NCBI RefSeq assembly: GCF_000247815.1 | Contig: NC_021671.1 | Location: 27,792,463-27,856,462 of the forward strand | Source of the DNA: Ficedula albicollis | Lineage: Eukaryota > Chordata > Aves > Passeriformes > Muscicapidae | DNA length: 64,000 nucleotides | Direction of reading: 5' to 3' | In this document: positions 32,619 to 34,322 of the stretch, piece after piece | Layout: the number at the start of each line of letters is the position of its first letter | Position numbering within the stretch: the stretch's first letter is position 1 | Position numbers and translations under genes: made by a program | The notes under the pieces: generated by a model | Seen by the model: only the letters and a program-made list of their open reading frames with translations | Databases searched by the model: none | Told to the model about the DNA's origin: nothing

Positions 32619-32916
32619 CCCCCCCCCCCCCCCCCCCCCCCCCCCCCCCCCCCCCCCCCCCCCCCCCCCCCCCCCCCCCCCCCCCCCCCCCCCCCCCCCC
32701 CCCCCCCCCCCCCCCCCCCCCCCCCCCCCCCCCCCCCCCCCCCCCCCCCCCCCCCCCCCCCCCCCCCCCCCCCCCCCCCCCCCCCCCCCCCCCCCCCCCC
32801 CCCCCCCCCCCCCCCCCCCCCCCCCCCCCCCCCCCCCCCCCCCCCCCCCCCCCCCCCCCCCCCCCCCCCCCCCCCCCCCCCCCCCCCCCCCCCCCCCCCC
32901 CCCCCCCCCCCCCCCC
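32619..32916. other. Poly-C run, 298 bases (sequencing artefact)
   Basis: An uninterrupted C homopolymer directly followed by six T and the P7 adapter. On the - strand this reads adapter, A6, then poly-G, which is the standard end of a short-insert read on two-colour Illumina chemistry, where absence of signal is called G. It should be treated as a masked gap. Confidence 0.95.
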
Positions 32917-32963
32917 TTTTTTCAAGCAGAAGACGGCATACGATATCGGTCTCGGCATTCCTG
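32917..32963 (-). other. Illumina P7 adapter/flow-cell oligo contamination
   Basis: T6 (32917-32922) is followed by CAAGCAGAAGACGGCATACG, then ATAT and CGGTCTCGGCATTCCTG (32923-32963). This matches the Illumina paired-end primer carrying P7 at 40 of 41 positions. The single difference is T for G at 32944. This is synthetic sequence, not genomic. Confidence 0.97.
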
Positions 32964-33036
32964 CCCCCCGAGTCACTGTCCCCTCACACCGCTCTCCCCG
33001 AGTCACTGTCCCCTCACACCGCACCCCCCGAGTCAT
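32964..33036. repeat. 30-bp minisatellite (right block, probable read duplicate)
   Basis: Two further copies of the same unit (GAGTCACTGTCCCCTCACAC, with CGCTCTCCCC and CGCACCCCCC endings) and another truncated CGAGTCAT end exactly where the second C run begins. It probably comes from the same locus as the left block, placed twice around the artefact. Confidence 0.85.
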
Positions 33037-34322
33037 CCCCCCCCCCCCCCCCCCCCCCCCCCCCCCCCCCCCCCCCCCCCCCCCCCCCCCCCCCCCCCCC
33101 CCCCCCCCCCCCCCCCCCCCCCCCCCCCCCCCCCCCCCCCCCCCCCCCCCCCCCCCCCCCCCCCCCCCCCCCCCCCCCCCCCCCCCCCCCCCCCCCCCCC
33201 CCCCCCCCCCCCCCCCCCCCCCCCCCCCCCCCCCCCCCCCCCCCCCCCCCCCCCCCCCCCCCCCCCCCCCCCCCCCCCCCCCCCCCCCCCCCCCCCCCCC
33301 CCCCCCCCCCCCCCCCCCCCCCCCCCCCCCCCCCCCCCCCCCCCCCCCCCCCCCCCCCCCCCCCCCCCCCCCCCCCCCCCCCCCCCCCCCCCCCCCCCCC
33401 CCCCCCCCCCCCCCCCCCCCCCCCCCCCCCCCCCCCCCCCCCCCCCCCCCCCCCCCCCCCCCCCCCCCCCCCCCCCCCCCCCCCCCCCCCCCCCCCCCCC
33501 CCCCCCCCCCCCCCCCCCCCCCCCCCCCCCCCCCCCCCCCCCCCCCCCCCCCCCCCCCCCCCCCCCCCCCCCCCCCCCCCCCCCCCCCCCCCCCCCCCCC
33601 CCCCCCCCCCCCCCCCCCCCCCCCCCCCCCCCCCCCCCCCCCCCCCCCCCCCCCCCCCCCCCCCCCCCCCCCCCCCCCCCCCCCCCCCCCCCCCCCCCCC
33701 CCCCCCCCCCCCCCCCCCCCCCCCCCCCCCCCCCCCCCCCCCCCCCCCCCCCCCCCCCCCCCCCCCCCCCCCCCCCCCCCCCCCCCCCCCCCCCCCCCCC
33801 CCCCCCCCCCCCCCCCCCCCCCCCCCCCCCCCCCCCCCCCCCCCCCCCCCCCCCCCCCCCCCCCCCCCCCCCCCCCCCCCCCCCCCCCCCCCCCCCCCCC
33901 CCCCCCCCCCCCCCCCCCCCCCCCCCCCCCCCCCCCCCCCCCCCCCCCCCCCCCCCCCCCCCCCCCCCCCCCCCCCCCCCCCCCCCCCCCCCCCCCCCCC
34001 CCCCCCCCCCCCCCCCCCCCCCCCCCCCCCCCCCCCCCCCCCCCCCCCCCCCCCCCCCCCCCCCCCCCCCCCCCCCCCCCCCCCCCCCCCCCCCCCCCCC
34101 CCCCCCCCCCCCCCCCCCCCCCCCCCCCCCCCCCCCCCCCCCCCCCCCCCCCCCCCCCCCCCCCCCCCCCCCCCCCCCCCCCCCCCCCCCCCCCCCCCCC
34201 CCCCCCCCCCCCCCCCCCCCCCCCCCCCCCCCCCCCCCCCCCCCCCCCCCCCCCCCCCCCCCCCCCCCCCCCCCCCCCCCCCCCCCCCCCCCCCCCCCCC
34301 CCCCCCCCCCCCCCCCCCCCCC
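33037..34322. other. Poly-C run, 1286 bases (assembly artefact over LAMP1 5' end)
   Basis: A pure C homopolymer up to the last bases of LAMP1 exon 1. No natural vertebrate locus is expected to carry such a run, and its neighbour is an adapter. Reading frames across it encode only poly-Pro or poly-Gly and are spurious. The true LAMP1 promoter, 5'UTR and start codon are probably hidden or replaced here. Confidence 0.93.

Follow-up and report, generated by a model that had tools for sequence, protein, structure and literature searches.

The interval 32619-34322 of the window, the whole 64 kb stretch of collared flycatcher DNA that was analysed, is almost certainly an assembly artefact, which probably arose from a short-read gap, from adapter and poly-G pieces, and from software walking. 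The artefact stands where the first exon of LAMP1 would be expected and is not a biological feature. Three things were observed directly: the parts of the interval with their order, the recurrence of this order in assemblies of unrelated organisms, and the lack of a recognisable LAMP1 exon 1 in the window.

The features of the interval and of its surroundings are listed in Table 1. The window does not contain any N. The plus strand exhibits the order minisatellite, T, C298, T6, 42 adapter bases, 72 minisatellite bases, C1286, TCGGTAAGGGG, and a CpG-rich stretch. The first-pass annotation had given the two pure C runs of 298 and 1286 bases and the minus-strand orientation of insert, adapter, A6, and poly-G; the coordinates and lengths of the runs were reproduced and the orientation was confirmed by the order of the parts. 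The longest other C run within the 64 kb consists of 8 bases. Both long runs are preceded by an identical 11 bases, CCCCGAGTCAT, and both continue into genomic-looking sequence. The 72 bases at 32965-33036 are made of the same 30-base minisatellite that stands to the left of the first C run. The left array is probably genomic and the units neighbouring the artefact may be genomic as well. These possibly genomic units and the position of the interval at LAMP1 exon 1 had been overlooked in the earlier reading. The stretch 34323-34822 has a GC content of 0.698 and a CpG observed/expected ratio of 0.96. A real repeat or gene was considered for the long ORFs over 32.5-34.5 kb and was rejected because these are readings of the homopolymers, and the earlier warning that gene and GC calls are invalid here stands.

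Table 1. Features of the artefact and of the neighbouring LAMP1 exons (positions in the window).
Feature	Position	Strand	Basis
30-base minisatellite, 3.3 copies, and junction T	32518..32618	+	TRF row 32518-32617, 97% matches; 11-base suffix common to both C runs
Pure C run, 298 bases (minus strand: poly-G); artefact	32619..32916	+	Run lengths
T6, taken as a piece of the T spacer in the P7 oligo of the flow cell	32917..32922	+	T run abuts P7 in the comparison set
Illumina PE PCR Primer 2.0, first 42 bases, 41/42	32923..32964	+	Alignment to the oligo
About 2.4 more minisatellite units, seeming 'insert' of the adapter-bearing piece	32965..33036	+	70-base alignment to the left array, 2 mismatches
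Pure C run, 1286 bases; artefact	33037..34322	+	Run length; LAMP1 exon 1 missing
TCG, putative final bases of LAMP1 exon 1, then splice donor GTAAGG at 34326	34323..34325	+	Phase fits exon 2
CpG-rich stretch, putative start of LAMP1 intron 1	34326..34822	+	Base composition
Presumed false first coding exon (MTGVCCMFFLSLRTQNVNSFGLG) in the public LAMP1 model of the flycatcher	43007..43075	+	N-terminus, tblastn 23/23
LAMP1 exon 2, the earliest genuine coding exon among those identified in the window	43287..43402	+	Sequence comparison

The bases at 32923-32964 were aligned with the Illumina Paired-End PCR primer 2.0. The two agree in 41 of 42 bases with a single mismatch at 32944. The P7 core, which is the first 21 bases of the match, is exact, and none of 100 shuffles matched with up to 3 mismatches allowed. 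The match to a library oligo is near-exact and beyond chance. Among nine other oligos, only P7 matches at the same place as primer 2.0. The rest of these oligos scored 9-12 at scattered places and primer 2.0 scored 39 (scores without a chance control). T6 and a 41-base match to the P7 adapter had been reported before. The T6 and the 41 matching bases stand, but the oligo is identified more precisely as the old un-indexed PE PCR Primer 2.0 and not as P7 alone. The insert-proximal 19 bases of primer 2.0 are absent, and a whole adapter that starts from its insert-proximal base directly after an insert is not found at this interval. We take the adapter in the window to be of the un-indexed paired-end kind that preceded TruSeq, and we read the T6 as belonging to the T spacer in the P7 oligo of the flow cell. 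The adapter is embedded in 64 kb without N at the site of a missing exon, and this location suggests a filled gap.

The collections of prokaryote genomes and viral contigs were scanned for a pattern of C10, T4, 0-12 bases, and the P7 core. The C and T runs were demanded by this pattern; the position at an end, the adapter that follows, and the direct abutment of the T run to P7 were not demanded. The pattern matched 28 prokaryote stretches and two viral stretches, which hold 31 P7 occurrences. An index and then Nextera (19) or TruSeq (12) follows in all 31. A T run of 4-11 bases directly abuts P7 in every occurrence, with lengths of 4 (14 occurrences), 10 (14), and 5, 9, and 11 (one each). The lengths of 4 or 10 in 28 of the 31 fit the T spacer of the flow-cell oligo. 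Thirty of the 31 occurrences, in 29 of the 30 stretches, lie at a stretch end, where 0-23 bases remain after the C run. The Pseudoclavibacter chromosome (L022, OU365335.1) carries C25-T10-P7-Nextera at 2770-2810, embedded as in the flycatcher; within its 8 kb stretch this artefact is 2.8 kb from one end and 5.2 kb from the other. The other 27 public prokaryote stretches terminate in untrimmed adapter and poly-C/G. Unrelated genomes would not be expected to share such a composite through descent. The first-pass description of a short-read artefact that carries adapter and lies inside the assembly is supported.

The P7 core alone occurs at least 122 times in at least 120 viral stretches. Among the viral P7 matches listed, 117 of 122 lie within 200 bases of a stretch end. 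None of these 122 listed matches has C5 or more and T3 or more before P7, so that adapter contamination takes the poly-C form only in a minority of cases. The comparison set also holds points against the artefact model. Its C runs reach 73 bases at most, versus 298 and 1286 in the flycatcher, and the PE 2.0 class is absent among the 31 occurrences and the 122 viral matches listed (8 of these 122 are unclassified). The canonical 42 bases of PE 2.0 were found in no viral stretch. When C10 was replaced by G10, no viral stretch matched versus two for C10, which is a weak control from the viral collection only. The order of C run, T run, and P7 offers a simple screen for such assembly errors.

The genes on both sides were identified from ten translated pieces. 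Three pieces from the left matched Cullin in Pfam, three from the right matched the LAMP luminal domain, and four pieces had no match. One left piece, 14693-14995, matches PDB chains of Cullin-4A (E 4e-36) and one right piece, 44648-45058, matches PDB chains of LAMP1 (E 6e-21). By these similarities the flanking genes are assigned as CUL4A and LAMP1. The LAMP1 protein that was joined by hand (exon 2 to the end, 399 aa) is 100% identical, as rounded, to the NCBI 'PREDICTED' Ficedula albicollis model (P0001), and the next bird among the homologues listed is Catharus ustulatus (91%). Exon 2 begins at 43287 after TTTTTATCAG, with GC TTT TTA CAG, and the split codon G|GC encodes the Gly of LGFLQ. 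The right edge of the poly-C, (C)TCG|GTAAGG, gives Leu and the G of the split codon together with a good donor. The end of exon 1 was placed beside C1286 because the phase of TCG|GTAAGG fits exon 2. By phase and motif, C1286 would end three or four bases short of the end of exon 1, and it would take the place of almost the whole exon, together with the LAMP1 promoter and 5' UTR.

Eight of the ten other LAMP1 proteins that were fetched carry MAR..LLAA..L upstream of LGFLQ(A/V)SSSF, and the remaining two, P0003 and P0005, begin at exon 2 or slightly upstream of it. No credible counterpart of the signal-peptide exon that other birds have (MARGLLAAAALL) was found in the window, and tblastn of the exon 1 query MARGLLAAAALLG against the window gave a best match of 7/10 identical residues (E 3.1). 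The exon is present in relatives and was not found here between flanks that are present, which is the pattern of a false loss of a GC-rich 5' exon. Candidates for exon 1 were also rejected. The match of the Lonchura N-terminus (E 8e-6) is a low-complexity alignment of proline and alanine against the poly-C. The peptide LAAVFLTGFLQ at 42237 (8/11, E 1.9) contains GFLQ, which belongs to exon 2, and was taken as a chance match. The tblastn of other-bird N-termini elsewhere in the window gave low-complexity or chance matches only.

The first coding exon of the public flycatcher LAMP1 model stands 211 bases before exon 2. Its N-terminus is not seen in the other ten fetched LAMP1 proteins, and the public protein is without the signal peptide that is present in other birds. 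From this comparison the exon is read as false, and the public LAMP1 protein model as wrong, most likely because of the artefact. The occurrence of this unusual N-terminus both in the public model and in the window further links the window to the assembly behind that model. In what is apparently the collared flycatcher reference, a contaminant takes the place of the LAMP1 promoter and signal-peptide exon, and a substitute N-terminus is found in the public model. Analyses of GC content, CpG islands, methylation, and promoters at this locus would be wrong. A paper from 2024 still mapped to FicAlb1.5 (PMC10791521). The biological interest of the artefact is low, and its use is for annotation.

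The artefact may have arisen as follows. Short reads would have covered the LAMP1 promoter and first exon poorly, both being GC-rich and next to a C-rich minisatellite, and a gap would have remained. Untrimmed paired-end reads of a short minisatellite insert would have continued past its end into the adapter on the P7 side, from there into the flow-cell T spacer, and finally into cycles without signal that were called as G. The order of the parts suggests that such reads yielded adapter and poly-G pieces. The poly-G/poly-C words could have linked these adapter pieces to the genuine flanking sequence. The assembler or gap-filler could have circled within the homopolymer and written 298 and 1286 Cs. 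The adapter without its insert-proximal 19 bases argues against a clean read-through origin. Adapters have been reported to concentrate at contig ends (PMC11536531).

Low-complexity reads probably led assembly or gap-filling software to write the homopolymers, whatever the base-calling chemistry, and the adapter would have entered via the same poly-G words. The joining step is assigned to software because adapter bases are missing, the poly-G returns to the minisatellite, the identical 11-base left junction occurs twice, and the runs far exceed short reads in length. A poly-G at the end of a read cannot continue into ATGACTCGGGG, so the pieces are read as joined by software. The window without N is consistent with this origin. 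SOAP gap closing was used in the assembly of the flycatcher W chromosome, which is not the reference itself (PMC4468903). The reads of a flycatcher resequencing study, which are not the reads of the reference, are 100 bases long (PMC4468903), and both C runs exceed this length.

A writing of the homopolymers by software is compatible with a narrower version of the same artefact, in which the poly-G stems from dark cycles called with two-colour chemistry; this specific source is rather unlikely. An A run and then poly-G after P7 are expected from dark cycles beyond the template end, poly-G from lost signal has been described for two-colour instruments (PMC13218037), and the comparison genome of Methylobacterium WL119 (L012), which has the same order, is from a study that used NextSeq (PMC6798729). 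However, the PE primer in the flycatcher is un-indexed, unlike all 31 comparison occurrences. NextSeq was launched in 2014, and FicAlb1.5 probably predates two-colour instruments. NovaSeq dates from 2017, and HiSeq is described as a four-dye instrument (PMC13218037). FicAlb1.5 (AGTO00000000.2, GCA_000247815.2), from which we infer that the window derives, was used with HiSeq reads by November 2014 (PMC4272252) and in papers from 2014 to 2016 (PMC4272252, PMC4468903, PMC4878770). The first-pass annotation had called the order exactly what two-colour instruments emit. This claim is doubtful given the 19 missing adapter bases, the poly-G that re-enters the minisatellite, the runs that are longer than short reads, and the likely source assembly, FicAlb1.5, which probably predates such instruments. 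A real, very long C tract beside the minisatellite at the LAMP1 promoter is practically untenable with an Illumina oligo between the two runs, exon 1 of other birds not found in the window, and a next longest C run of 8 in the 64 kb, even though the minisatellite is C-rich and GAGTCAT precedes both runs, so that the walk may have started from a short genuine C tract.

The artefact shares characteristics with reported systems. In the Illumina adapter contamination of public assemblies (PMC11536531), library adapters are likewise found in contigs, in a fixed orientation to the contig ends, whereas the flycatcher adapter is an older un-indexed PE primer that is embedded in long N-free sequence with homopolymers longer than reads. 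The two-colour poly-G tails (PMC13218037) also extend past the usable template (poly-C on the flycatcher plus strand), but these tails end reads, whereas the flycatcher run enters genomic-looking sequence and the likely data are from the four-dye HiSeq. The false loss of GC-rich 5' exons (PMC9516821) is similar in that the first exon and promoter are missing and a substitute exon is annotated. It differs in that the flycatcher gap is filled by adapter and poly-C and not by N, and LAMP1 is not named in the main text of that paper (0 occurrences).

Earlier Sanger and Illumina assemblies, including those of birds, have been reported to lose GC-rich 5' exons and promoters (PMC9516821). The N-termini of LAMP1 homologues were counted by a simple pattern in the best 120 of 1035. 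A signal peptide before GFLQ is present in 33 of the best 120 (28 named birds, one unnamed, and four crocodilian or tuatara). The start lies within 3 residues of the exon 2 GFLQ in 58 of the best 120, many of which are labelled partial. Another N-terminus is found in 10, including the flycatcher model, and 19 are without the GFLQ anchor, among them several turtles in which visual inspection shows a signal peptide. Many bird assemblies or annotations may lack the first exon of LAMP1; the 58 models are a count and not proof of exon absence, as automatic annotation can also miss such short exons. We offer only as speculation, with little credence, that in flycatchers a genuine C-rich tract, some tens of bases long and G-rich on the opposite strand, separates the minisatellite from LAMP1 exon 1. 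Such a tract could stop polymerases and could have seeded the artefact, and together with the GC-rich exon it could explain the loss of exon 1 from many bird models.

Other features were observed in the window. The ORF 29780-30076, which has no Pfam match, resembles the end of the reverse transcriptase of an avian CR1 LINE. Six tandem duplications of 2.0 copies are located at 1549-1749, 2116-2290, 6856-6989, 37171-37259, 55230-55396, and 58851-59431. Their units are 45-291 bases long with 88-98% matches, and they could be real or could be false duplications from contig joining or gap filling.
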